Origin: a virus
DNA: 22,520 bases
IMG/VR virus record: IMGVR_UViG_3300030101_002799
Coordinates: 1-22,520 of that record
Direction: 5' to 3' (one strand)
The position numbers and the translations under genes are program-made. Within the stretch, counting starts at the first letter, position 1. The number at the start of each line of letters is the position of its first letter. Under the pieces are notes generated by a model. It was given only the letters and a program-made list of their open reading frames with translations, was not told the DNA's origin and ran no database searches. Shown piece after piece: positions 3,248-21,112 of the stretch.

Positions 3248-4066
3248 ATGAAACGTCTATTGGTTTTAGCGATATGTAGTTTTTTTGCTATTCCTTTGTT
3301 TGCACAAACGCAAACGGAGATAACCACGACTGCCACAAGTACAAGTTCTTCAACCAACAATAACAACAACAATAACAATACGACTTATACAGGAACGTCA
3401 ACAAATACCAATACCAATAACAGTACGATCAATACCACTACGGACTCAACGAGCTTGAACACCAACGTCAACTCAATGAATTATAATGGGCTGATTGAAA
3501 ATATAAATACCAGCACTAGCAACAATACTAATACTAACAACACGGTATCGACTAGCAGTGCTAACAACGTGAATACAAACAACACCATCAGTAACACTAC
3601 GTCTAACAGCACAAGTTTTACTACGACTAATTCAGTTAGTGATATTACTGCGATCAACACTAACAATAACCTTAACGATACTGTTAGCAGATCAACACAG
3701 CGGGTAACGCAGAAGTTAGAATCACCGCCGCCATCTGCTATCGCGCCCAGTATTGGCAGCAGTTATAGCCAAGATCTATGCACTACGGGCATATCAGGAG
3801 CAGTTCAGACTCAAATACTAGGGTTCTCCACAGGGAAGTCTGTTAGGGACGTAAACTGTGAGCGAATCAAATTAGGAAAAACTCTATATGATATGGGGAT
3901 GCGGGTGGCGGCAGTCAGTCTTATGTGCCAAGACTATAGGGTCTGGGCTAGCATGATGTCTGCTGGGACTCCTTGTCCATACGATGGCAAGATTGGCGAT
4001 GAGGCAAAACTCTTGTGGGAGGCTAATCCTGATCGGGTTCCTGAGCCAGACAGGAGAGTTAGATGA
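3248..4066 (+). CDS. Secreted Asn/Thr/Ser-rich protein with conserved Cys-containing C-terminal domain
   Basis: The first 20 residues (MKRLLVLAICSFFAIPLFAQ) form a clear Sec signal peptide, with likely cleavage after an LFA motif. Residues about 26-155 are almost entirely Asn, Thr and Ser, including an eight-Asn run. Residues about 160-272 form a compact domain with Cys178, NCERIKLGKTLYDMGMRVAA, MCQDYRVW and a TPCPYDGKIGDEAKLLWE end. The four Cys suit disulfides outside the cytoplasm. I recognise the C-terminal domain as recurrent in marine phages, but it has no known function. The gene overlaps the next by four bases (ATGA), and the next product is also exported, so the two may act together in the envelope or on the cell surface. 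Confidence 0.65.
   Translation: MKRLLVLAICSFFAIPLFAQTQTEITTTATSTSSSTNNNNNNNNTTYTGTSTNTNTNNSTINTTTDSTSLNTNVNSMNYNGLIENINTSTSNNTNTNNTVSTSSANNVNTNNTISNTTSNSTSFTTTNSVSDITAINTNNNLNDTVSRSTQRVTQKLESPPPSAIAPSIGSSYSQDLCTTGISGAVQTQILGFSTGKSVRDVNCERIKLGKTLYDMGMRVAAVSLMCQDYRVWASMMSAGTPCPYDGKIGDEAKLLWEANPDRVPEPDRRVR
3326..3720 (+). repeat. Low-complexity Asn/Thr/Ser coding tract
   Basis: About 130 codons made almost only of aac, aat, aca, act, acg, agc and agt. They include a tight microsatellite-like stretch of aac/aat codons near 3354-3380. The mixed codons argue for selection on the protein composition. The tract is still a place where slippage by multiples of three could change length. Confidence 0.75.
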
Positions 4067-5949
4067 AAGAAATACCTGACTGGCTATTGATATTAATCGT
4101 GATGGCAGTGATAGCCATTCCGACGATATCCCTTGCAGATAACTTGTCTCCCGAGGGGATGACGCAAGTAATGTCAGGCGTAGATGACAAGGCTGTTTCT
4201 GTTGAGATGGGTCATACGTTTCCTTGGCTAGATCAAGTGTTTACTCATGCGTGGATGGGCACTAACGGTTTTGTACTCATGTATAACCCAACCTCCGGTG
4301 TTGGTCTGCAATCTGCTCCTCCAGGTGGGTTTTGCTGCGATGGCTATACTCATGCCACAGGGATGCCGACATATATGCCTAGAACACATGGTATTGGCAG
4401 CTTTTCATATATGCTGGCTCCCTTGTGGACTGACCTAGATGACACTAGTAACGACGCGAATGCAGGATATTTTTACAAGACTAATGCTGACTCAACCAGT
4501 TTTTTGTGGAACAAGGTCAGAGAATATGCGACTACAAACGAGAACACGTTTGGCCTAACGCTTGATCGCACTGGAGGCTTCAAGTTTGAGTATCAAGATG
4601 TCAATGTGAGCTTTCACCACAAAGCATTTGTAGGCTGGTATGGTGGTCCTAATTTTCCGAACGGTGACGGCTATGGCGGAAGTTGGACGCAAGAGTGGGA
4701 AATGAACGGCTTCACAACTACTGATGTCTTGAACTACGGCGGTGACACTCAGTTTGAGGTCAACAACGGTGTTGCAAGTTTAGTGATGTCTGCAAGCACG
4801 TTAAATCAACCACAGGGCGGCGGAGGTCAGGCTTCTGCTCCACCCAGCTACGCAGAACAGGTAGCAGACACTGTGTTTGGCGATTCTGCTGATGACTTTA
4901 TGAATCTTGATCAACCGGATGCAATGGGCAGACCTCGTGTTTTAACACAGTTAGCACAACCGCAGGTCTATCAAAATGCACCCCAAGAGCAGATGTTTAC
5001 AGGTCCACAGGTAATGGGTAGAGCACCCACAGGTGAACCAGTTAGACAAGATCAACAGCAGCAAGCACCAGAGATTGTGGGTGAACCTGCACAAGTCGAA
5101 CAAGTTCGAGAAGCTAGACCTGCTGAAATTGTTCAGGTAACTCGTGAGCCAAGACCAGAACCAGCTCCAGAGCGAGTTGTTATTAGGGCAGAACCAGTAG
5201 TGCGACAGGCGCAAGTTGTAGAAGCGCAAGCGGCTCCTGTTGAAGTTGCTGCCGAAACAAGGGCAGAACCTGCCGCTGAAACAGTAAGTGCCGTGGTTAA
5301 ACCATCAGTAGATGTTGTCGGTATTGCTTTGAGTTTGTCTGGGCAATCGCAGTCATTTGGATTTCAAGCACAAAATATGGGCATATCTCAGGATACAGGC
5401 CCAAGCCAGACTGTAGCAGGTATGCAGCAGCAAATAATGCAAACGGTAACCAATCAGGCAGATCAACAAGAGGCTAATGGACTTACACAAGAAGACTTGT
5501 CTCCGCCAAGTCAGATGCAGTTTGAAAATGACTTTAATGATGCGATAGCGACAGGCCAGAGCATTGGTCAGTTTTTAAGCGCACAGCTTCCAGACTTCAG
5601 CCGTTTTGACGTTGCACCGCCAAGTCAGCAGGAACAGCGCACAGTCCAACGTGCTGAAGCCCAGATACAAAGCATGAGTCAACAGGATATCGAACAGAGC
5701 TTAGAGAATGAGATAGGAAACCTTGGGGACACAGGCGGTTTCACCGATCAAAGTTTAGCGGTGTTTCTCATATCAAATAATCCTGCCTTTAATCAATATG
5801 ACAACATAAGTCTATCTGATAGGCAGCAGTTTTATCAGTCAGCGCAGCCTTACCCATCTAATCAACTACGGGCGAATCTCTCTGGGTTGCTGCGTATGAC
5901 TGGTAATGATGAATACAATGAGTTGGTAGAGTTACAGTGGCAGAGGTAG
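4063..5949 (+). CDS. Exported protein with possible nidogen-like domain and long Gln/Pro/Glu-rich linker
   Basis: The protein is 628 residues. Residues 1-25 are a hydrophobic signal or anchor (WLLILIVMAVIAIPTISLAD). Residues about 26-245 form an ordered domain with the NIDO-like signs APLWTDLDD, a YFYK strand, FGLTLDRTGGFKFEYQDVNV and many aromatic residues. A CC pair sits in GGFCCDGY. Residues about 247-430 are disordered, rich in Gln, Pro, Ala and Glu with repeated REARPAE and REPRPEP segments. The C-terminus (about 430-628) is Gln/Asn/Ser-rich and helical. The start is fixed by a four-base ATGA overlap with the preceding secreted-protein gene. The NIDO assignment is by pattern only. It could be an envelope-located or virion surface adhesin. 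Confidence 0.6.
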   Translation: MKEIPDWLLILIVMAVIAIPTISLADNLSPEGMTQVMSGVDDKAVSVEMGHTFPWLDQVFTHAWMGTNGFVLMYNPTSGVGLQSAPPGGFCCDGYTHATGMPTYMPRTHGIGSFSYMLAPLWTDLDDTSNDANAGYFYKTNADSTSFLWNKVREYATTNENTFGLTLDRTGGFKFEYQDVNVSFHHKAFVGWYGGPNFPNGDGYGGSWTQEWEMNGFTTTDVLNYGGDTQFEVNNGVASLVMSASTLNQPQGGGGQASAPPSYAEQVADTVFGDSADDFMNLDQPDAMGRPRVLTQLAQPQVYQNAPQEQMFTGPQVMGRAPTGEPVRQDQQQQAPEIVGEPAQVEQVREARPAEIVQVTREPRPEPAPERVVIRAEPVVRQAQVVEAQAAPVEVAAETRAEPAAETVSAVVKPSVDVVGIALSLSGQSQSFGFQAQNMGISQDTGPSQTVAGMQQQIMQTVTNQADQQEANGLTQEDLSPPSQMQFENDFNDAIATGQSIGQFLSAQLPDFSRFDVAPPSQQEQRTVQRAEAQIQSMSQQDIEQSLENEIGNLGDTGGFTDQSLAVFLISNNPAFNQYDNISLSDRQQFYQSAQPYPSNQLRANLSGLLRMTGNDEYNELVELQWQR

Positions 5950-6440: not shown

Positions 6441-7202
6441 ATGAAACTTGATCCTGTGCTGTTAAAGATGGCGTCCAGTTGGTCTGCAAAGGCTTACGAG
6501 GATAGTGTTAAAGATGCCATAAAGATAGAAAATAAATGGACAAGCGCAACTGCTTATATTGCAAAGCGCAAAACTATTGACGTAATTGCTTTTAGGGGGA
6601 CACAGCAAAAGCTCGATGTGTTAACAGACATCAATGTTGTACCTGTGCCATATGCAGGTAGGCTGTGTCATGGCGGATTTGTTATTCAACACGCATCTAT
6701 TTGGGGGCAGATAAAAAAGCATCTTGATCCCAACAAGCGAACCTTGTTTTGTGGTCATAGTCTTGGTGGTGCGTTGGCAGAACTATCTGCGGCTAAAATG
6801 TATAAAAAACACAAAAACATAAACATTGTGACCTTTGGTAAACCGAATACGTTTTTCAAAGGGTTCAAGCGTCCAATGGATTTGGATTATCAAATATCGT
6901 GTGTACAGGGCAGTGATATTGTATCGAGGATACCAAGGCTGTGTTATGGCCCAAGCGTAAGCCAGACCATGTTGTATTTTGCTAACAACGGAACAAATGT
7001 TGTAAATCCTGGTGAGTTATTTAGGAGTGTAGATCGGGGCGGTCTGAAAGACAGAATATCTGATCATTTAATGGCAGGATATACAGAAAGATTAGAGCAG
7101 TATCTTGAAGAAAGAGAAGAAGCTGCAAAGAAAGTCACCGAATTACGAAAGCAAGATAAACAAGATCTGGAGAAAACCGCTGATGAAATGGAAGCTAGCT
7201 AG
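6441..7202 (+). CDS. Class 3 lipase-like alpha/beta hydrolase
   Basis: The 253-residue protein carries the lipase class 3 (fungal lipase-like) signature. It has VIAFRGTQQKLDVLTDINV near residues 48-66 (the oxyanion-side region), the nucleophile elbow GHSLGGALAE with Ser107, VTFGKPNTF after it, GSDIVSRIPR with Asp159, and SDHLMAGY with His209. A full Ser-Asp-His triad is therefore present. The last 40 residues are a charged helix. There is no signal peptide, so access to phospholipids would need release or holin action. Genes for a coiled-coil membrane protein, a lipoprotein and a holin surround it, so a part in host lysis or membrane breakdown is the natural inference. A virion enzyme is the alternative. 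Confidence 0.85.
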   Translation: MKLDPVLLKMASSWSAKAYEDSVKDAIKIENKWTSATAYIAKRKTIDVIAFRGTQQKLDVLTDINVVPVPYAGRLCHGGFVIQHASIWGQIKKHLDPNKRTLFCGHSLGGALAELSAAKMYKKHKNINIVTFGKPNTFFKGFKRPMDLDYQISCVQGSDIVSRIPRLCYGPSVSQTMLYFANNGTNVVNPGELFRSVDRGGLKDRISDHLMAGYTERLEQYLEEREEAAKKVTELRKQDKQDLEKTADEMEAS

Positions 7203-7395
7203 TATAGGAATATTGGTATGTTTGCCAAGCTGCACCTCTGTTGAGCAGGTTATAGCTAACAAAGAACTATATTGTAGTCAGTTCTACAAAGGTGTACGGG
7301 CTGTAGGTAGAGGAGCGTTATCTGCAACTACAGGTGTTGTTGTGCCAGATGTGTGCGACACCATTGATGAGATTGTAGAAGAGGCTACAGAATGA
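7183..7395 (+). CDS. Small lipoprotein (possible outer-membrane spanin or lysis lipoprotein)
   Basis: I start this 70-residue gene at the ATG at 7183, not at the upstream ATG at 7105. A GGAG at 7169-7172 sits ten bases before it. The resulting protein begins MKWKLASIGILVCLPSCTSV, a typical lipoprotein signal with lipobox LPSC and lipidation at the Cys. The mature part of about 54 residues has two more Cys (YCSQF and DVCDT) and a Gly/Ala-rich GRGALSATTGVVV segment. The gene overlaps the lipase end by 20 bases and the holin start by four. Size, lipobox and position fit an o-spanin, but the mature part lacks the proline-rich stretch of classic Rz1, so the role is only suggested. Confidence 0.65.
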   Translation: MKWKLASIGILVCLPSCTSVEQVIANKELYCSQFYKGVRAVGRGALSATTGVVVPDVCDTIDEIVEEATE

Positions 7396-7862
7396 AGTTA
7401 GGTGGGCTGCTAAAGTCCCTAGCTCCAACTATAGCCAGCGCAGCGGGTGGGCCTATGGCTGGAATGGCTGTCAAGATGGCGGCGCAAAAGCTAGGAATGC
7501 CAGATGCTACAGCTAACGAGATAGAAGATTTAATAGAGCGAGAACCAGAGAAGGCGGTCTTGCTCAAAGAAGCAGACAAAGATTTCAAAGATCGTATCCG
7601 TGAAATGGAGATAGATCTTGAGTCATTTAAGACCGAGGTTGAAGATCGTAAAGATGCCAGAAGTAAGTTTTCTGGTGATATAACGCCCAAAGTCTTCTGT
7701 ATATTGGCTTTGTTGCTCTATGGGGCCTATGTAATGGCTGTTACTATTATGCCGCATGATCAGAATGATGAGACTATAATTAGTCTGGTATTAGGCCAGT
7801 TGAGCGGCATTTTGGGTACTTGTGCTGCCTTTTTTTATGGCGGTTCAAACGGAAAGGGTTAG
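7392..7862 (+). CDS. Holin of the 3-TM (gene-transfer-agent) type
   Basis: The 156-residue protein begins with [20 protein letters not shown], a small-residue amphipathic or membrane helix. A charged helical middle follows ([20 protein letters not shown], then [10 protein letters not shown]), then two strong membrane helices at about 100-120 and 127-149, ending [10 protein letters not shown]. This arrangement (Gly/Ala-rich start, LLKEAD-F middle, EDR-DAR, membrane helices, FGGS-like end) matches the family known as holin of 3TMs for gene-transfer release (PF11351). Holins form the timed inner-membrane lesions that end infection. It starts by ATGA overlap with the lipoprotein gene. No endolysin is visible next to it, which is odd for a lysis cassette. 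Confidence 0.75.
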
Positions 7863-8974: not shown

Positions 8975-9618
8975 CGTATTTAGACCTTATAAATAATGTT
9001 TTGCGAAGGTTGCGAGAAGATCAGGTAGAAACAGTCAATGGTACAGACTATTCGAGTCTCGTTGGTGACTTGGTAAACGATGCCAAGAAGGTTGTTGAAA
9101 ACTCATTTGATTGGACTGCATTGCGGGATGCCATAACGATCAGCACTACAAGTGGGACGAGCGAGTATTCTATTACTGGTAGCGGAGATCAGGCAGTCAT
9201 AAAGGATGTTATGAATACAACATCCCAAAAGTTTATGTATCAACGCAGTAAATCATATTTTAACAATGTGTATTTCAATACTGCTGTCGTAGCAGGATCA
9301 CCAGACTACTTTACATTTATCGGCACTGATACAAATAAAGATTTAAAAATAAAATTATATCCAGAACCTAATGCAATATTTGCGATACGGTTCGATGTAG
9401 TTGTACCACAAGCTGATTTAACGTCAGATTCTGATACGTTATCTATTCCAAGCAATCCAGTTATACAGTTGGCTTATGCTATGGCTTTACGAGAGCGAGG
9501 CGAGACAGGTGGTCAGTCAGCAGCAGAGCAGTTTGCGGTAGCATCCACAGCTTTATCTGATGCTGTTGCTTTTGATGCTAACCGATATCCAGCGGAGCTT
9601 ACGTTTCAGGTGATCTAA
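8971..9618 (+). CDS. Tail tubular protein A-like (head-tail adaptor) protein
   Basis: The 215-residue protein begins [20 protein letters not shown], a start I associate with the T7 gp11 / P22 gp4-type adaptor family of short-tailed phages. It is followed by a helix with [20 protein letters not shown], then alternating beta strands ([43 protein letters not shown]). It ends in a helical [20 protein letters not shown] segment with the conserved small-residue helix typical of such adaptors. It sits immediately before the propeller-like tail protein, in the order of T7 genes 11 and 12. The adaptor ring would join the portal to the tail nozzle. Assignment is by pattern and gene order. Confidence 0.65.
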
Positions 9619-11147
9619 TGGCTCAGAGATTACAAAGCATCACAATAACAGCTCCTGGTTTTGCGGGTATAAATACGCAAGACGCGCCGTTGGCCCAAGA
9701 TCCTACGTTTGCATCAGTAGCAGACAACTGCATTATTGATAAAGAAGGAAGGATTGCTGCTCGTAAAGGTTATGAAATGGTGTCATCAAATGGCAGCAGT
9801 GTATTGGGGTCTTCTGCTGGCATAGAGGCTGTACACCAGTTCCGCGATGAGGCAGGAAATACTAAAGTCTTTACGGCGGGTAACAACAAGATATTTACTG
9901 GTACATCTACATTAGCAGATGCTACCCCAGGTTCTTACACGGTATCGGCAAACAATTGGAAGATTGTTAACTTTAACAGTAAAGCATACTTTTTTCAGAG
10001 AGCGCATGAGCCACTTGTGTTCTCAAACAGTGCCAATGCAGTACAAAAAATGTCTGCACATACGGGGGCGTCAGGAACGCCACCCCAAGCGAATGAAGTA
10101 TTGGCAGCGTTTGGTAGGCTGTTTGTTGCTGACTTTGCAACAGATAAGTCTACTGTATTCTTCAGCGACTTGCTCGATGGCACTACATGGGACTCTGGGT
10201 CAGCAGGATCAATAGATATATCTAAGTTCTGGCCTAATGGCTACGACGAAATAGTGGCTCTTGCAGCTCATAACGACTTTTTAGTGATATTTGGACAGGA
10301 CTCTATATTGCTCTATTCCGGTGCAGAGTCTCCAGCGTCTATGACGTTGGCTGACACTATATCAAACATCGGGTGTGTCTCTCGCGACTGCGTTGTTTCT
10401 ACAGGCAAAGATCTTTTATTTCTTGATAAGTCTGGTATGCGTAGCATTGCTAGAACAATACAGGAAAAGTCCTCTCCGATTGGTGATATATCTAAAAATG
10501 TAAACAGCGATATAAAGGCTCTGATTGCCTCCGAAACGGGCAACATTAAAACACTGTATAGCGCAAAGGAAGCGTTTGTTTTGGTCAACTTTCCTGCATT
10601 GCAGCAGGTCTTTGTGTTTGATACTAGGTTTCCCTTACAGGATGGGTCGCACCGAGCTACAACATGGACTGCAATTGCACCGCTTAGTTTTACTAACTTA
10701 GCAGACGATACTATTTACTTTGGTGTGTCTACAGGGTTGGCTCAATATGCGGGATATGATGATGATAATACAGCCTATCAATTAAGTTACTTTTCACATC
10801 CTTTGGCATTTGGTGATAGCTCTGTTTTAAAGTTTCTTAAAAAGGTCAATCTTACGACATTTGACGGAGCGCAAGCTCCAGTTGTGTTGAACTGGGCTTA
10901 TGACTATTCAAATGCGTACAGAAAACAGGTCTATACTTTGCCTTCAAACAATTCAGCGCAGTACAACATATCAGAGTACAACACCTCAGCAGAGTATTCT
11001 GGGTCACTTAATTTAATAAACAGACAGAAGATCAATACATCTGGATCTGGTGCTGTAGTAGCGGTTGGTGTAGAAACCACCGTAAACGGTAAATCTATTG
11101 CTATACAACAATTAAATATTCACGCTTTATTAGGAAGGATTGTCTGA
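9618..11147 (+). CDS. Tail tubular protein B / stabilization-type tail protein
   Basis: The 509-residue protein begins with ITAPGFAGINTQDAPLAQDP, then VADNCIIDKEGRIAARKGYE. This is a familiar opening of podovirus tail nozzle or tail-stabilization proteins (T7 gp12 and P22 gp10 positions). The body is beta-rich with repeated short strands (KVFTAGNNKIFTGT, AYFFQRAHEPLVFSNSANAV, RLFVADFATDKSTVFFSDLL, DFLVIFGQDSILLYSG), which suits a propeller fold. The C-terminal third is beta-rich, with KINTSGSGAVVAVGVETTV. It starts on a TAATG overlap with the adaptor gene and ends on a TGATG overlap with a tiny fibre-adaptor gene. The exact family (gp12 or gp10 type) cannot be settled by eye. Confidence 0.65.
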   Translation: MAQRLQSITITAPGFAGINTQDAPLAQDPTFASVADNCIIDKEGRIAARKGYEMVSSNGSSVLGSSAGIEAVHQFRDEAGNTKVFTAGNNKIFTGTSTLADATPGSYTVSANNWKIVNFNSKAYFFQRAHEPLVFSNSANAVQKMSAHTGASGTPPQANEVLAAFGRLFVADFATDKSTVFFSDLLDGTTWDSGSAGSIDISKFWPNGYDEIVALAAHNDFLVIFGQDSILLYSGAESPASMTLADTISNIGCVSRDCVVSTGKDLLFLDKSGMRSIARTIQEKSSPIGDISKNVNSDIKALIASETGNIKTLYSAKEAFVLVNFPALQQVFVFDTRFPLQDGSHRATTWTAIAPLSFTNLADDTIYFGVSTGLAQYAGYDDDNTAYQLSYFSHPLAFGDSSVLKFLKKVNLTTFDGAQAPVVLNWAYDYSNAYRKQVYTLPSNNSAQYNISEYNTSAEYSGSLNLINRQKINTSGSGAVVAVGVETTVNGKSIAIQQLNIHALLGRIV

Positions 11148-12528: not shown

Positions 12529-13920
12529 ATGGCTATAGACATACCATCACTATTTAGTGACATCATTGGTACAGATGAGCAAAGACGATTGCAGATGCTG
12601 CAAGAGGGCGATCTGTTGGCGCGTCAACTCACAGGGAACCTCAGAACAGGGGCTGGAGCTAGTCTTGGTCAAAGATTAACAGCGACAGCAGCACCAACAG
12701 TCACGGCTATCGCAGGTCAACTGCCACAACGCAGAGAAGATATAAGGAGGGCAGCAGGAGGTATGCTTGGCCTCGATGTCAGAACACAGGGCGAAAAGGT
12801 GCAAGATGCACTTCGTGGAATTGACGCAAGTGATCCAGAAAGTTTGTTACAAGCTGCCCAATCGGTTGGGGATTTAGGTTTGGGTTCGCAAGCAGCAACA
12901 ATTCGTGGATTAGCAGCAGATGTTACAAGACAAAATCAAGCAGATATCAGGGCGCAAGAAGCAGATTCGAGAGAGCAGGAACAATCGAGGATCAGCATAA
13001 ATAGAGATTTGCAAGCAATTTCAGAGTCTGCAGAACGACAGTTAACATCTAGGCAAAATCGGTTATTTGCAGCAGAAAATAGAGATAGTGAATTAAGCTC
13101 CCAAGAACGGCAAGCCAAATTAGAAAAACTTAATTTACAGGAGGCCGAGCTACGGATTCAAGCCTTAAAAGAAGGAGATCCAGTAGATGAAGTGTTTGGA
13201 GCACCACAGTTTTACCCAAATGGCGTTATTTCTTATATAGCAAAAAATGGTGATCCTGTTGTCAAAGATATTAATGCCAATGTTCTAAGCGGAGATGATG
13301 CTAGAGCAGCACTTGAAGAAGGTAATGCACGTTTAGTAGAGCAACAGCAAAAAGTATACCAAGCTCGCCGTCTTGGAACAGCGGCAGCAAAAACGGCGGC
13401 AGATGCGTTTGAAAGTATTGGCCCACAACGCATAATGATTACGAATTTGAGGGAGGCGGCAAGACTTGTTGAGGGCGGTGCTGCAACAAGTAAGCTCGAA
13501 GAGTTTTTAAAGCCACTAAGCCAAGCAACACAATTTTTAAAACAAATAAACGGTGAGCTTACTTTATCGCAATTGAGTCAAGTCACGATGGGGGCTTTAA
13601 GTGAGAAAGAACTAGAGTTATTGGAAGCTACTGCCGCTCCAAGTGGTTTTAAGAAAGGTCAGATTGTGCAGTGGTACAGAGATAAAGCCGCAGCAACAGA
13701 AAAAGCGTTGACGATTTTGGAGGAACAAGCAGCATTTTTTAGTCGGCCTGGAGCGACACCTGAAACTTGGATAGAATCTCAAAAAACAAAAAGAGAAGCG
13801 CAAGAATCACCAAATGCCGAGGACACCGAAGAAAGGGCAAAATTGCTCAGGGAGGTACGAGGAGAAAGTTCTCAGCAGAGAGTTCCTGGCACTGGTGGGC
13901 GAACTGGAAGGCCAAATTAG
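12529..13920 (+). CDS. Candidate internal virion protein, coiled coil (gp15-like position)
   Basis: The 463-residue protein is preceded by GAGG seven bases before its ATG. Residues about 20-75 are Arg/Leu/Thr/Gly-rich. Residues about 130-215 form a strongly charged coiled coil (QADIRAQEADSREQEQSRIS, RENRDSELSSQERQ-like segments). A small beta patch follows at about 220-250 (GAPQFYPNGVISYIAKNGDP), then more helices with LSQVTMGALSEKELELLEAT. The last 60 residues are Glu/Arg-rich and probably disordered. I see no enzymatic motif. The LSEKELELLEA plus SGFKKGQIVQW pattern recurs in ejection proteins of marine podoviruses in my memory, but I cannot name a family. Its position between two other large helical proteins supports an internal virion role. 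Confidence 0.5.
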   Translation: MAIDIPSLFSDIIGTDEQRRLQMLQEGDLLARQLTGNLRTGAGASLGQRLTATAAPTVTAIAGQLPQRREDIRRAAGGMLGLDVRTQGEKVQDALRGIDASDPESLLQAAQSVGDLGLGSQAATIRGLAADVTRQNQADIRAQEADSREQEQSRISINRDLQAISESAERQLTSRQNRLFAAENRDSELSSQERQAKLEKLNLQEAELRIQALKEGDPVDEVFGAPQFYPNGVISYIAKNGDPVVKDINANVLSGDDARAALEEGNARLVEQQQKVYQARRLGTAAAKTAADAFESIGPQRIMITNLREAARLVEGGAATSKLEEFLKPLSQATQFLKQINGELTLSQLSQVTMGALSEKELELLEATAAPSGFKKGQIVQWYRDKAAATEKALTILEEQAAFFSRPGATPETWIESQKTKREAQESPNAEDTEERAKLLREVRGESSQQRVPGTGGRTGRPN

Positions 13921-17018: not shown

Positions 17019-17858
17019 TCAATCTCCGCAAAAGCATGGCAACGATTCGCTATCATCAAACATGTTCAAATTGTTGGTTGCAATGATTGATAGGTCTTTG
17101 TAACTTCTACCGTAGCTATCAAAAAGTTTGTCCGACCTAGACTCTTGTTCAATCCACCACTCTGCTAGATCAGGTCTTTGCTGAATTATGCTTTTCCTTT
17201 TTCTCTGCCCTTTTAAAAAACACAAGTCGCAGTTACCCCAATCCGTAAGACCATTTATGCTTGGCAAGCTCAGATCAAAATCATTGTTTTCCCAAAACTC
17301 GAACACGGTTTCTTTTGTCACTTTCTCTCGATATAACGGAAGTATCTTTTCAGACCCATCGCTTACTTTCCCTAATAATCGCATGGCCCTTCTAGGTTCA
17401 TCTGCTCGTAAACCAAGCATTGACAAGTACGGCCTCTGAAAACCAACATCACGCAAATATCTATCAATTGTCTGTACCTTTAACTGACCGCTGCACCAAC
17501 GTGTTCGAGGATTAGGAAGTTGACCAATATCATCAATTAGTTTTGAAAACGGCTCCCCAGAACGACTAGCAGTGTCATAAGTAACAATTTTGTAGTGATA
17601 GGTATATTTCATTTCGTCATCATTTTTGCTGCGGCCGTCATATTCAAGCCATGTTATCGGAACATTCCAGTAAAGCTCACAATCTCTGACGAAATCTAAA
17701 GTCTGAGGCATTTCTTTTCCGGTGTTGGCGAAACAAACCTGAAAGTAGTCTGGTAGACAGCCGTTATATGCCTCTAGTACCTTATAAAGCATGAATGCGC
17801 TTGTCCTGCCGCCAGAAAACGAAATCAATGTTTGCTCGTTTGTCTTGTAATAATTCAA
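17019..17858 (-). CDS. PAPS-reductase-like PP-loop ATP pyrophosphatase, Cys-rich
   Basis: The 279-residue protein has the PP-loop SGGRTSA at residues 15-21. Then come FANTGKEMPQTLDFVRDC (residues 43-60), LPNPRTRWCSGQLKVQTIDR (114-133, with Cys122) and a late Cys cluster: CDLC at 210-213 and CFCGD at 275-279. This is the phosphoadenosine-phosphosulfate-reductase-like family found in phages and plasmids. PP-loop enzymes adenylate a substrate, and some related ones thiolate nucleic acids. Cys122, Cys210, Cys213 and one of Cys275/277 could hold a metal or an iron-sulfur cluster (inference). The start is a TTG at 17858 overlapping the TGA of a 30-residue gene (TTGA). No ATG or GTG lies in frame upstream back to a stop at 17991-17993, so the start is uncertain. 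It is downstream of queC, itself a PP-loop enzyme. Confidence 0.75.
   Translation of the reverse strand: MNYYKTNEQTLISFSGGRTSAFMLYKVLEAYNGCLPDYFQVCFANTGKEMPQTLDFVRDCELYWNVPITWLEYDGRSKNDDEMKYTYHYKIVTYDTASRSGEPFSKLIDDIGQLPNPRTRWCSGQLKVQTIDRYLRDVGFQRPYLSMLGLRADEPRRAMRLLGKVSDGSEKILPLYREKVTKETVFEFWENNDFDLSLPSINGLTDWGNCDLCFLKGQRKRKSIIQQRPDLAEWWIEQESRSDKLFDSYGRSYKDLSIIATNNLNMFDDSESLPCFCGD
17024..17027 (-). promoter_or_regulatory. Ribosome binding site of the SNase-like gene
   Basis: On the minus strand GGAG lies six bases before the ATG at 17017, inside the end of the PP-loop gene. It sets the start of the SNase-like protein. Confidence 0.7.
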
Positions 17859-17947
17859 GAAAATATGCCGTTGAGCATCATCATAAGCATCAACAGAAAC
17901 AGTATAGTTGTGGCCGCTGCGTATAGAGTGTCTTGTAGTATTTTCAT
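17855..17947 (-). CDS. 30-residue hydrophobic membrane peptide
   Basis: Between queC and the PP-loop gene a 30-codon frame encodes MKILQDTLYAAATTILFLLM, then LMMMLNGIFS. Residues about 8-27 are a single transmembrane helix. The ATG is three bases after the queC stop, with AGGG six bases before it. The TGA overlaps the TTG of the next gene (TTGA), the same kind of coupling as elsewhere in this unit. It fills the only gap in an otherwise gapless block. Against it, the PP-loop frame is also open across this region, so the frame could be chance. I see no family; single-helix peptides of this size can modulate membrane or lysis proteins. Confidence 0.45.
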   Translation of the reverse strand: MKILQDTLYAAATTILFLLMLMMMLNGIFS

Positions 17948-17950
17948 GTT

Positions 17951-18625
17951 CTACCCTAAATATGTTATTTGATCGGATATGTTTACGCTCTCAAAGCCAG
18001 ATTTTCTAAGTCGGCAACTGGTACATTTTCCACAAGCCTCACCTACCGCTCTTGCGGAATAGCAAGACACACAGTTAGCAAAATCTAAGTAGAGAGCGTT
18101 AGCAATCTGAATAATTTGGGATTTGCATTTGCCTATTAAGGGAGTTTTAAGCTCTATCGTGTGGCCTTGCGTGGTTTTTTTAGTTGCCACATTGATAGTG
18201 TGTTGAAACGCCTCAATAAACGAACGGCGGCAATCGGGATAACCATCGAAATCTAAAGCGTTGACACCAATATAAATGGCCTCTGCACCAATGCTGTCGG
18301 CCCAAGACAATGCGTAAGACAAAAAAATTACGTTGCGGGCTGGGACATAAGTAACAGGAACGCCGTCACCGTCTTGCTCTGGCAACTCAATGTTGTGGTT
18401 AATAAGCGCGGAATCAGTTAGGAAACTTAAATCCAGAGAGACAATACTATGCTTTTTTGCCCCCATATTGGCAGCGAGTGTTGTCGCTGCGTCTATCTCT
18501 ACACGGTGTCTCTGTCCATAATCAAAAGTAAGTGCAAAACATTCTTGGTAATATAGCTTCGCAATGGCGAAACAAGTGGCTGAGTCTAACCCGCCTGATA
18601 ACAACACAATCGCTCTGTGTCTCAC
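17951..18625 (-). CDS. queC: 7-cyano-7-deazaguanine (preQ0) synthase QueC
   Basis: The 224-residue protein contains the PP-loop SGGLDSAT at 10-17, LTFDYGQRHRVEI at 32-44, VPARNVIFLSYALS at 94-107 and GVNALDFDGYPDCR at 120-133. It ends with the zinc site CVSCYSARAVGEACGKCTSC, where Cys188, Cys198, Cys201 and Cys204 are the expected ligands. Length is normal for the family. QueC uses ATP and ammonia to turn 7-carboxy-7-deazaguanine into preQ0. In phages this enzyme feeds DNA modification, and the DpdA-like gene two positions upstream supports that use. It starts at a GTG two bases after the queE stop codon, at the family's usual N-terminus. Confidence 0.95.
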   Translation of the reverse strand: MRHRAIVLLSGGLDSATCFAIAKLYYQECFALTFDYGQRHRVEIDAATTLAANMGAKKHSIVSLDLSFLTDSALINHNIELPEQDGDGVPVTYVPARNVIFLSYALSWADSIGAEAIYIGVNALDFDGYPDCRRSFIEAFQHTINVATKKTTQGHTIELKTPLIGKCKSQIIQIANALYLDFANCVSCYSARAVGEACGKCTSCRLRKSGFESVNISDQITYLG

Positions 18626-18627
18626 AA

Positions 18628-19278
18628 TTACTTACCCGCCACATCACCCCAAAGCAGTTTATGCTGTTGGAGTTGCATTCGGACATTTAGCTGGTCATTT
18701 AAAATCCACTCTGCTAACTCGGTAGCGTCCTGTTTACCGTGTGCAGGAGAGAAAAAGATATGCTGTACTTTCTCCGTCAAGTTGTACTGAATTGTCTTTG
18801 ATTTTGACCATGCGTAATCCACTGCGTCACAAATCACAAACTTAACTTGGTCTTTCCTTTTGAGCAAACCCACGTTCTGCCATAAGTTTTTATCTGACTG
18901 CATTGATCCAGGTGTTTTGAGGTCAAGGACAACAGACACTCGACGATCAATGTTATCAATCGGTAATGCGCCGCTCGTCTCTAATGATACGTCCCGACCA
19001 GTAGCAGCTAATGCACCTAACAAAGTTCGACAGTCTGGCTGTGCTAACGGTTCACCGCCAGTGACAGTGATGTAACCACAGTCAAAACCCATCACTTGTT
19101 GCAATATTTGTTGTATAGATTGCCGATTACCGCCGCTAAACGCGTATTCAGTGTCGCAATATATGCATCGTAGTGGGCAGCCAGTTAGACGTACAAACAC
19201 AGTAGGACGACCCACAGTGTGAGATTCACCTTGGATGCTGTGGAATATTTCAGTCACTCTAAATTTAGGCTCTTCCAT
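18628..19278 (-). CDS. queE: 7-carboxy-7-deazaguanine synthase QueE (radical SAM)
   Basis: From the ATG at 19278 the protein has 216 residues and begins with the family's N-terminus, EPKFRVTEIFHSIQGESHTV. The radical SAM cluster motif is CPLRCIYCD, with Cys34, Cys38 and Cys41 (C-x3-C-x2-C). It is followed by YITVTGGEPLAQ (the SAM-binding GGEP), DVSLETSG and VVLDLKTPGS. QueE converts CPH4 to CDG. The start I chose is one base after the dpdA stop codon; a longer frame to 19344 would lie inside dpdA and add nothing typical of the family. There is no strong ribosome binding site, so coupling to dpdA is likely. The substrate comes from FolE and QueD, which are not visible here. Confidence 0.95.
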   Translation of the reverse strand: MEEPKFRVTEIFHSIQGESHTVGRPTVFVRLTGCPLRCIYCDTEYAFSGGNRQSIQQILQQVMGFDCGYITVTGGEPLAQPDCRTLLGALAATGRDVSLETSGALPIDNIDRRVSVVLDLKTPGSMQSDKNLWQNVGLLKRKDQVKFVICDAVDYAWSKSKTIQYNLTEKVQHIFFSPAHGKQDATELAEWILNDQLNVRMQLQQHKLLWGDVAGK

Positions 19279-19279
19279 G

Positions 19280-19924
19280 CTATGTGAGTGGTACGCCGTT
19301 AAGTTGTTCAGGGTATTTATCGAAAATGCTAATGTTCTGACCAAGCGTGTGTTCTCCCTTTACAAAAGATACTACCTCGCGGAGCATATGATCGTATTTA
19401 CTGATGCCAGATCCATCAATTGAGTCAGCAATATCTATCCAATTAGATAGCCGTTCAACGGTATTTACCCTGCCAATATGTACCCACTTACCTAGCATTT
19501 TGGCAGTGCGGCAAGTTTGTATTGCCTCTGGGCTTATTTTGAAAGCATCAGAACCGCCAACAAACACCGCAGATATCTTGCGCCAAGGGATGCTTACATC
19601 ATTGATGCCGTCCTGAAGCACTAAAGCGCGAGGCAATCCGTTAGTCCGTAATTCAAATTCTTCAAACAATTCCATAGTTCTTTGAGCATTACCCACGATG
19701 TCGGGCAAACAGATAAACTTTGCCATCTTGATTGTTTCCGTTTCATCTACAAGTCTTTCCCATGTCTTTCGATTAAAAGTTTTGAAACAACCGTTGTCTA
19801 GCCCATAAGGTCTATCACCAATCGCATTAGCCGTTAACGGTGTACGCAATTGCCAGAACTCATAATCAAACTGGGTAGACCGTTCGATCAGTCGTTTAGG
19901 GCTTGCATCAAGCATAATTTTCAT
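19280..19924 (-). CDS. dpdA: DpdA-like DNA-guanine transglycosylase (short phage form)
   Basis: The 214-residue protein has features of short TGT-like DpdA proteins: RPYGLDNGCFK with Asp43, KFICLPDIVGNAQRTMELFE with Asp75, and RALVLQDGIND with Asp105. AVFVGGSDAFK follows with Asp126, then GKWVHIGRVNTVERL and a late DSIDGSGISKYDHM. TGT enzymes use Asp for base exchange, and the GG-S-D patch resembles their substrate pocket. The zinc-binding C-terminus of bacterial TGT is absent, as expected for phage DpdA. Known DpdA enzymes put preQ0 or derivatives into DNA in place of guanine. Here queE and queC follow directly, giving both base supply and insertion. The start is an ATGA overlap with the sigma-like gene. 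Which Asp are catalytic is not provable by eye. Confidence 0.85.
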   Translation of the reverse strand: MKIMLDASPKRLIERSTQFDYEFWQLRTPLTANAIGDRPYGLDNGCFKTFNRKTWERLVDETETIKMAKFICLPDIVGNAQRTMELFEEFELRTNGLPRALVLQDGINDVSIPWRKISAVFVGGSDAFKISPEAIQTCRTAKMLGKWVHIGRVNTVERLSNWIDIADSIDGSGISKYDHMLREVVSFVKGEHTLGQNISIFDKYPEQLNGVPLT

Positions 19925-20511
19925 AAGTCATCCTCTAGGTATGCTTTTAGGTCTCCTGACCGCGTGGGGTTTCGTAAGTATCTCATTCCTTTGTTATAGA
20001 TTTGTCTAGTTCGCTCAAGGGAACGCCCAATCTGCTCTCCAATTTCGGTAAACGTATGCTCTCGCTCATAGTCCTGTATACCATGACGCATCTTGATAAC
20101 CTTGCTTAGGCGGGGTGGTAATGAGCTGAGAGCTTCATAAATGTCAGACTGTGCTTGTTCCGTTATTAATAGTTGCTCTGCGGTTTTGTTCTCAAGAAAA
20201 TTGCTAGACATCATTTCTGACATATTCAATTCGACCTGTGCCTTATTAGCCTCAAGTGGATCAAGGATGTTTTGGGGCGGGAACATATCTTCAATGCCAA
20301 TCATAAGAAAATCGGCGAGTTTCTGGACGGATGTAACGACTCTTCCAACCTTATTCACGGGTGCAATCTTCAGATTAAGCATCTTTCCTATTTCAGTCTG
20401 AGTCACGCCAGAAGCCCGATGAAGCTCTGCTGCTGTTTGATATCCCCTCTGTCTCATCTGAGTCAGTAGGTAGTTATTCTTAACCTTTATCTCAATTGAA
20501 TAATCCTTCAC
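19921..20511 (-). CDS. Regulator fusing XRE-type helix-turn-helix to sigma-70 region 4
   Basis: The 196-residue protein starts at a GTG at 20511, with AGGA shortly upstream. Residues about 15-75 look like a Cro/C1 (XRE) domain: YQTAAELHRASGVTQTEIGK holds the helix-turn-helix, and it ends ADFLMIGIEDMFPP, the usual exit of such domains. A linker of about 45 residues follows. Residues about 125-182 are a sigma-70 region 4: LPPRLSKVIKMRHGI, then HTFTEIGEQIGRSLERTRQI and NKGMRYLRNP. Regions 1 to 3 of sigma are missing, so it should not act as a full sigma factor. It could bind -35-like elements and the RNA polymerase beta flap, like some phage sigma appropriators (inference). It is coupled to dpdA by an ATGA overlap. 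Confidence 0.8.
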   Translation of the reverse strand: MKDYSIEIKVKNNYLLTQMRQRGYQTAAELHRASGVTQTEIGKMLNLKIAPVNKVGRVVTSVQKLADFLMIGIEDMFPPQNILDPLEANKAQVELNMSEMMSSNFLENKTAEQLLITEQAQSDIYEALSSLPPRLSKVIKMRHGIQDYEREHTFTEIGEQIGRSLERTRQIYNKGMRYLRNPTRSGDLKAYLEDDL

Positions 20512-20546: not shown

Positions 20547-20963
20547 TCACTTTGACTCCCGCCGATAATCGCGTATAAATTTATTCCCCTTCCTGACATT
20601 GCACCGTTTGCAAAGTATTTGTAGGTTATTTTCGTCTTTACTTAACTCTGGGAATAGGCTCGTTGGGGCGATATGGTCAATATGAAGTTGTGCGTCTGTA
20701 GCAGTTGCTCCGCAACTCTGGCATTTAAATTCTAATTTATTGATGGACTCTTTCTTATGTCCCATTCCTACGAACTGGTTACCTCTAGCCTCAACGTGTT
20801 CAATAAACGATTTAACCAGCTCATCAATTATTTCTCCCTGTGACTTTTTCGTTTGAGCACTCTTTAGCGCGAGACTCTCACAAGTGCCATCACTCAGATT
20901 AAAGGTCTTACGGCTTTTTCCTACCCCCGCAAAGCAAGATTTACTGCTTGGCTTCCAGTCCAT
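20547..20963 (-). CDS. HNH endonuclease
   Basis: The 138-residue protein starts at the ATG at 20963, which shares its A with the stop of the 49-residue gene (TGATG), with AAGGA before it. Residues 80-125 are a zinc-ribbon HNH domain: FKCQSCGA with Cys81 and Cys84, LHIDHIAPTSLF with His94, Asp96 and His97, ENNLQILCKRCNVRKGNKF with Asn113, Cys118 and Cys121. The first 70 residues contain TFNLSDGTCESLALKSAQTK and a helix EIIDELVKSFIEHVEA, perhaps a ribbon-helix-helix DNA-binding part. It may be a homing-type or packaging-type nuclease. Its place in a recombination operon also allows a role in DNA processing. Confidence 0.85.
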   Translation of the reverse strand: MDWKPSSKSCFAGVGKSRKTFNLSDGTCESLALKSAQTKKSQGEIIDELVKSFIEHVEARGNQFVGMGHKKESINKLEFKCQSCGATATDAQLHIDHIAPTSLFPELSKDENNLQILCKRCNVRKGNKFIRDYRRESK

Positions 20964-21112
20964 CACGTATCCTTCATTTGGTCTAATTTGTCTTTTATTT
21001 CTTCTAGTTGGTCTTTCAATTCATCAACAATGTCGGATAGCTTAGTAACGCGCCTAGCCACTTCCATCAACTCTTCCGTTTCTTGCTCAGTCATCTCTAA
21101 ACTTATCTTCAT
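20963..21112 (-). CDS. 49-residue charged coiled-coil protein
   Basis: The frame encodes MKISLEMTEQETEELMEVAR, then RVTKLSDIVDELKDQLEEIK and DKLDQMKDT. It is coupled on both sides: ATGA with the NinB-like gene at its start and TGATG with the HNH gene at its end. Such exact coupling at both ends is strong support for a real gene. The sequence is one amphipathic helix with Leu/Ile/Val in heptad spacing, so it probably forms a dimeric or hetero-oligomeric coiled coil. No function is recognised; an adaptor for the HNH or NinB-like neighbour is possible. Confidence 0.7.
   Translation of the reverse strand: MKISLEMTEQETEELMEVARRVTKLSDIVDELKDQLEEIKDKLDQMKDT

Follow-up and report, generated by a model that had tools for sequence, protein, structure and literature searches.

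A short transglycosylase-like gene adjoining queE and queC in a phage: a candidate exchangeable cassette for preQ0 synthesis and insertion

Three neighboring genes in IMG/VR virus record IMGVR_UViG_3300030101_002799, encoding a short transglycosylase-like protein (short TGT), QueE, and QueC, are read here, with moderate confidence, as an exchangeable minimal-DpdA cassette in which QueE and QueC would make preQ0 from host CPH4 and the short TGT would insert it, most likely into phage DNA. The stretch analyzed (positions 1 to 22,520 of the record, 22,520 nt; the window) probably covers only part of a phage genome. The trio is tightly packed on the minus strand (positions 17951 to 19924; Table 1), with gaps of 1 nt between the short TGT gene and queE and 2 nt between queE and queC, and the frames lie where the first-pass annotation had described three gapless neighbors with intact motifs. 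Its statement that FolE and QueD are missing also held for the 22.5-kb record, within which neither of these nor QueF or YhhQ was found. Promoter and terminator scans gave fewer sites than in shuffled sequence. Elsewhere in the window, a structural gene (positions 9618 to 11147; phrog_5107/3287-like) has 455 relatives in IMG/VR, and the phage is therefore a member of an abundant group.

Table 1. Positions of the trio and of the genes bordering it in the window
Feature	Position	Strand	Evidence or remark
Short TGT/DpdA-like protein, predicted preQ0 transglycosylase, 214 aa	19280..19924	-	TIM-barrel model; active-site set D43, D75, Q104, G123-G124, D170
QueE, 7-carboxy-7-deazaguanine synthase, radical SAM, CX3CX2C, gammaproteobacterial type	18628..19278	-	ATG at 19278, 1 nt past the stop of the 214-aa frame
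QueC, 7-cyano-7-deazaguanine (preQ0) synthase	17951..18625	-	GTG start, 2 nt past the queE stop
Sigma-70 region-4-like protein, left border of insert	19921..20511	-	PF04545, 4.7e-15
Free-standing HNH endonuclease, upstream of the sigma-like gene	20547..20966	-	PF01844, 1.3e-12
Small ORF (MKILQDTLYAAATTILF... is the conserved stretch), right border of insert	17858..17947	-	Junction sequences
PAPS-reductase-like ATP pyrophosphatase	17019..17858	-	PF01507, 1.6e-5; phrog_424, 1.2e-53

The identities of QueE and QueC can be regarded as secure on the basis of curated cut-offs and catalytic motifs, as expected from the earlier assignment of two preQ0 synthesis enzymes with intact motifs. QueC matches PF06508 (E value of 2.5e-71, 240 bits; cut-off, 22) and TIGR00364 (199.6 bits; cut-off, 150.3), and QueE matches TIGR04349 (324.5 bits; cut-off, 300), the Pfam radical SAM family (1.4e-11), and phrog_2076 (1.8e-34). 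Alignment of QueC found every motif listed for the enzyme (SGGxDS, YxQxHxxE, VPxRN, YPDC, and a Cys cluster; PMC13329287) intact, the first three as SGGLDS, YGQRHRVE, and VPARN. The first Cys spacing is 9, compared with 8 in PMC13329287, and is also 9 in the QueC of Acinetobacter and of contig L011. The CX3CX2C cluster (CPLRCIYC) and the GGEP motif of QueE are likewise intact.

The queE-queC pair was likely captured from a host in which the two genes are adjacent, judging from gene order and similarity. Of 80 bacterial loci, mostly from Gammaproteobacteria and Betaproteobacteria, 60 have queE immediately upstream of queC and in the same orientation. The chromosomal pair of Gammaproteobacteria has the gene order of the window, with 45 to 53% identity for QueC and up to 60% (59.6%) for QueE, whereas the pair in the window is joined downstream of the short TGT. 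The closest match in the phage collection, CAKLQF020000007.1 (L081), is labeled Acinetobacter phage; this 174-kb contig has the chromosomal gene order dapD-queE-queC and is probably host sequence. Base composition gave no signal of recent transfer (GC content of 0.43 to 0.45 in the trio versus 0.44 in the window).

Three contigs (L069, L084, and L092) with flanks 87 to 91% identical to the window lack the trio. The order in L092 is NinB, HNH, sigma-like, small ORF, and SNase, and the small ORF directly follows the stop of the sigma-like gene (‘...GAGGATGAGCTATGAAAATACTACAAG...’), while the trio separates these two genes in the window (‘...GAGGATGACTTATGAAAATTATGC...’ and ‘...GGGTAGAACATGAAAATACTACAAG...’). 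Because the sigma-like gene of L092 is joined straight to the small ORF, positions 17951 to 19924 represent exactly one presence/absence unit. The trio is absent at the same place in L084, and L069 lacks the trio, the sigma-like gene, and the HNH gene. The small ORF directly follows queC in the window and the sigma-like gene or the coil ORF in relatives. The sigma-like gene is 90 to 93% identical in the trio-less L092 and L084, and the HNH gene is 94% identical in L092. The occurrence of three separate trio-less contigs makes an assembly artifact unlikely on that side, and the junctions of the window rest on one record. Both ends of the insert have ATGAAAAT, which may be micro-homology or merely two similar gene starts.

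Neighboring genes were considered as further cassette members. The gene content of L069 prompted inclusion of the HNH and sigma-like genes, which was ruled out by L092, with both genes and no trio. The PAPS-reductase-like gene is kept in L069 without the trio and is absent from L092, and is treated as a neighbor whose role here is uncertain. It is nevertheless a recurrent partner of short TGT genes, being adjacent or near in L005 to L008, L058, and ReqiPine5 (gp02) and no more than about 2 kb away in L041, L042, and L046.

The locus is a hotspot: the corresponding interval in relatives holds genes of HNH, sigma-like, PAPS-like, radical-SAM-like, and DNA methyltransferase types. An ORF of the phrog_757 ‘DNA methyltransferase’ family lies between SSB and NinB in L069 (positions 3624 to 4226) and is also found in L086, L089, L090, L091, and L093 but is absent from the window, L084, and L092, a possible swap of DNA modification genes in one hotspot. 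L084, which lacks the HNH gene, has a radical-SAM-like ORF with a CRLKCSFC motif after NinB (positions 6518 to 7400).

The 214-residue protein has no match in Pfam or NCBIfam, and its sole family is phrog_15826, to which no function is assigned; the label DpdA therefore needed separate evidence. Viral scans placed relatives at 59 loci, and tblastn returned 22 phage records, several annotated as ‘DpdA-like tRNA-guanine transglycosylase’. Narrow search patterns found no relatives in bacterial genomes, and prophages may carry the gene. Comparison with L005 indicates purifying selection (dN of 0.19, dS of 1.72, dN/dS of about 0.11); dS was saturated in other comparisons.

AlphaFold2 modeled the protein confidently as a TIM barrel (pLDDT of 91.5) from an alignment of 42 sequences. 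Residues N44, P74, D75, Q104, G106, F121, G123, G124, K129, H149, R152, N154, R158, D170, and G171 are invariant in all 49 homologues, and D43 is kept in 48 of them. D43-N-G, D75, Q104-D-G, GG123-124, and D170 match in order D89, D143, Q187, GG213-214, and D264 of Escherichia coli TGT, an assignment made at the motif level, by motif order. The protein has no CxCxxC...H zinc motif and ends soon after the barrel, so that the C-terminal zinc-binding part is absent. In a search of PDB folds, generic TIM barrels led and TGT appeared at ranks 15 and 20, while several named top matches among viral models were phage queuine transglycosylases. The fold search is by itself non-diagnostic, since it does not separate TGT from other TIM barrels. 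Against PDB sequences, the only phmmer match was a designed protein (E value of 0.04), and hhalign against E. coli TGT as a single sequence gave no signal.

Profile comparison provided a more specific connection. Against eight DpdA1 proteins, hhalign gave an E value of 2.1e-4 with D43 to G124 in register, compared with 0.18 for a reversed DpdA1 decoy and 0.14 to 0.85 for four unrelated proteins; a narrower alignment gave a weaker match (E value of 0.0053). These values, with the catalytic motifs aligned, point to membership of the broad DpdA superfamily by remote homology to DpdA1. Comparisons with two HVTV-1 candidates gave nothing, and that with the DpdA2 of Vibrio phage nt-1, a single sequence, gave an E value of 0.16. 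The Pfam TGT family (PF01702) was useless as a detector, missing even known DpdA1 genes.

By the same comparisons, the short TGT is not the characterized phage DpdA1 (the CAjan/9g type, with a proven role in DNA). It is shorter, lacks the zinc domain, and is only remotely homologous, and a DpdA1 profile that finds the DpdA1 of R29Z, Sonali, and phiG7 has no match anywhere in the window. Furthermore, the two enzymes coexist in these three phages, which have folE, queD, queC, and DpdA1 plus a separate short TGT. A short TGT occurs without DpdA1 in four complete genomes (ReqiPine5, GreaseLightnin, Aoka, and Ssp-JY42). In phiG7, the short TGT (gp20/gp21; L022, positions 13244 to 13836) is frame-broken and next to the DNA polymerase gene; the R29Z copy is intact, in a similar place.

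The first-pass annotation had called the protein a transglycosylase-like DpdA and proposed structure prediction as a check. No fold unrelated to TGT was seen, but a TIM barrel alone cannot distinguish TGT from other barrels. The TGT-like part of the description stands, through the barrel, the ordered catalytic set, the weak but specific similarity to the DpdA1 profile, and linkage to supply genes; assignment to the DpdA1 type does not, given the profile miss and the presence of both kinds in three phages.

Linkage to genes for 7-deazaguanine supply recurs across the short TGT family. The short TGT gene lies directly beside queE-queC in the window, queE in L002 to L004, queD in L032, L036, L037, and L038, and queC in L066, a distant family member. 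It lies directly beside the YhhQ/Vut_1 queuosine-precursor transporter gene in L015, L017, L021, L053, L054, ReqiPine5 (gp04), and GreaseLightnin (gp54). The transporter matches of L015 (24.5 bits) and L017 (21.9 bits) are under the Pfam cut-off of 27.2 bits, and the queD match of L036 exceeds the Pfam cut-off but falls short of the NCBIfam one. In Aoka (L029), YhhQ (gp38), a QueF-like protein (gp39, annotated as hypothetical), and the short TGT (gp40) form an apparent run, from which nucleic acid containing preQ1 would be expected. Linked and unlinked states change at least six times on the short TGT tree, which is weak in its deep branches. A rough product of chance adjacencies over eight cases, chosen because they were linked and assuming 700 bases per gene and independence, is 2e-10, which shows that adjacency is non-random and nothing beyond that. 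In L011, queC is about 8 kb from the short TGT gene, and most other contigs, many of them short fragments, have no linked supply gene visible. A QueC match in L058 (18.2 bits) was discounted as weak and located at a PAPS-like gene, as were QueF matches in phiG7 and R29Z that overlap FolE, which has the same T-fold. L002 to L004 have no queC directly after queE and possibly represent a CDG-supply lineage or depend on host QueC.

The proposed route begins with host FolE and QueD, which would convert GTP to CPH4; phage QueE and QueC would convert CPH4 through CDG to preQ0. The short TGT, as a minimal DpdA consisting of a TIM barrel without a zinc domain, would then replace guanine by preQ0; its most likely nucleic acid target is phage DNA, following replication. 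The nucleophile would be an Asp, probably D170, while D43, D75, Q104, and GG123-124 would shape the pocket for the base. Modified guanines would serve as camouflage by masking restriction sites, and on this reading the phage would have deazaguanine in its own DNA, as inferred in the first-pass annotation. Dependence on host CPH4 is plausible, as searches of the window and of 20 relatives (up to 34.8 kb) turned up no QueD, although all of these sequences may be incomplete. In characterized phages, preQ0 is made from GTP by FolE, QueD, QueE, and QueC and inserted by DpdA, and deletion of dpdA from CAjan abolishes dPreQ0 and restores restriction sensitivity (PMC6884629). Phages encoding dpdA and none of the preQ0 genes contain traces of dADG (~0.02% of Gs in Salmonella phage 7-11 and ~0.13% in MED16, where it gives little restriction protection) or, in Orion, none (PMC6884629). 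Modification through the cassette of the window may consequently be slight.

An RNA target is an unlikely alternative, in which QueE and QueC would raise preQ0 for queuosine in host tRNA and the short TGT would act on tRNA or other RNA. RNA is the ancestral substrate of TGT, a TGT-like Gln without a conserved counterpart in the aligned DpdA1 proteins is retained by the short family (VLQDG; cf. IIQGS), and translation boosting was proposed for phages with preQ0 genes and no DpdA (Hutinet et al.; PMC6884629). Nevertheless, the short TGT lacks the C-terminal zinc-binding part, and in hosts possessing TGT, supply genes would not require linkage to a transglycosylase gene. In addition, YhhQ and the short TGT are paired in a mycobacteriophage whose host genus has no Q pathway genes (PMC6884629), and queuosine boosting therefore cannot explain that pair.

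It is also rather doubtful that the short TGT is an accessory transglycosylase working with DpdA1 and folE/queD located beyond the sequenced part of the genome. R29Z, Sonali, and phiG7 do have DpdA1 and the whole preQ0 set with a short TGT nearby (the broken copy in phiG7), but the four complete genomes without DpdA1 argue against this arrangement. QueD was found in none of the 20 relatives tested, nor DpdA1 in the nine of them tested for it, although these relatives are themselves without the trio, and a captured queE-queC pair would be redundant beside a full phage set.

Insertion of CDG, ADG, or preQ1 in place of preQ0, set by the supply genes and host enzymes present, is improbable for the window, where queC after queE leads to preQ0 as the expected product. 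Lineages with queE only, such as L002 to L004, would favor CDG, though host QueC could complete the route there, and the QueF-like gene of Aoka would favor preQ1. Chance placement of host-derived queE-queC beside an unrelated TIM-barrel gene, with no joint pathway, would fit a hotspot of varied genes and the lack of que genes in most short TGT contigs but is very improbable, as different 7-deazaguanine genes lie directly beside the short TGT in separate lineages.

Tentatively, and at somewhat less than even confidence, short TGTs form a separate clade of minimal (~200-aa) phage DNA transglycosylases, plug-ins paired in each lineage with the one or two supply functions needed (QueD, QueE, QueC, QueF, or a YhhQ importer) and gained or lost as an exact cassette between close relatives. 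Neither short ‘DpdA-like’ genes nor preQ0 clusters in phages are new. DpdA3 and DpdA4 were reportedly described by Cui et al. in 2023, and the short family may already be named, for example, among these. That description aside, the literature search found neither pairing of the short family with single, varying supply genes nor exact presence/absence of a short TGT cassette between close relatives. The separate gene pairings tie phrog_15826, a family without assigned function, to 7-deazaguanine metabolism, and closely related phages differing at the locus by exactly the trio offer a natural with/without comparison. Phages classed as without the pathway, or with a lone ‘DpdA-like’ gene, may modify guanine from host-made or imported precursors.

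Among known systems, the short TGT appears to represent a small and little-studied branch of an established family, remote from all enzymes with proven DNA activity. Bacterial TGT shares the TIM barrel and the order of catalytic residues but has a zinc-binding C-terminal part that the short TGT lacks, and profile similarity is undetectable by hhalign. The DpdA2 of Vibrio phage nt-1 is likewise a transglycosylase encoded beside queC, but it is 464 aa long, gave no profile signal with the short TGT in a single-sequence comparison, and has GTP cyclohydrolase and PTPS-like genes nearby, neither of which is in the window. Actinophage singletons publicly annotated as ‘DpdA-like tRNA-guanine transglycosylase’ (GreaseLightnin, Aoka, and Sonali gp81) belong to the same short family, with about 36 to 39% identity over 54 to 67% of the query; they adjoin YhhQ (with a QueF-like gene in Aoka) or have a full DpdA1 set nearby, and none lies beside queE-queC. 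The DpdA1 cassettes of the CAjan, 9g, and Rosebush types (Hutinet et al. 2019; PMC6884629) also link a TGT-like enzyme to preQ0 genes in phage, and DpdA1 has D-x-G, D, GG, and H motifs in common with the short TGT. Homology is only remote: the DpdA1 of CAjan has 306 aa compared with 214, and, unlike DpdA1 cassettes, that of the window combines two of the four preQ0 genes with an enzyme that keeps the TGT-like Gln.
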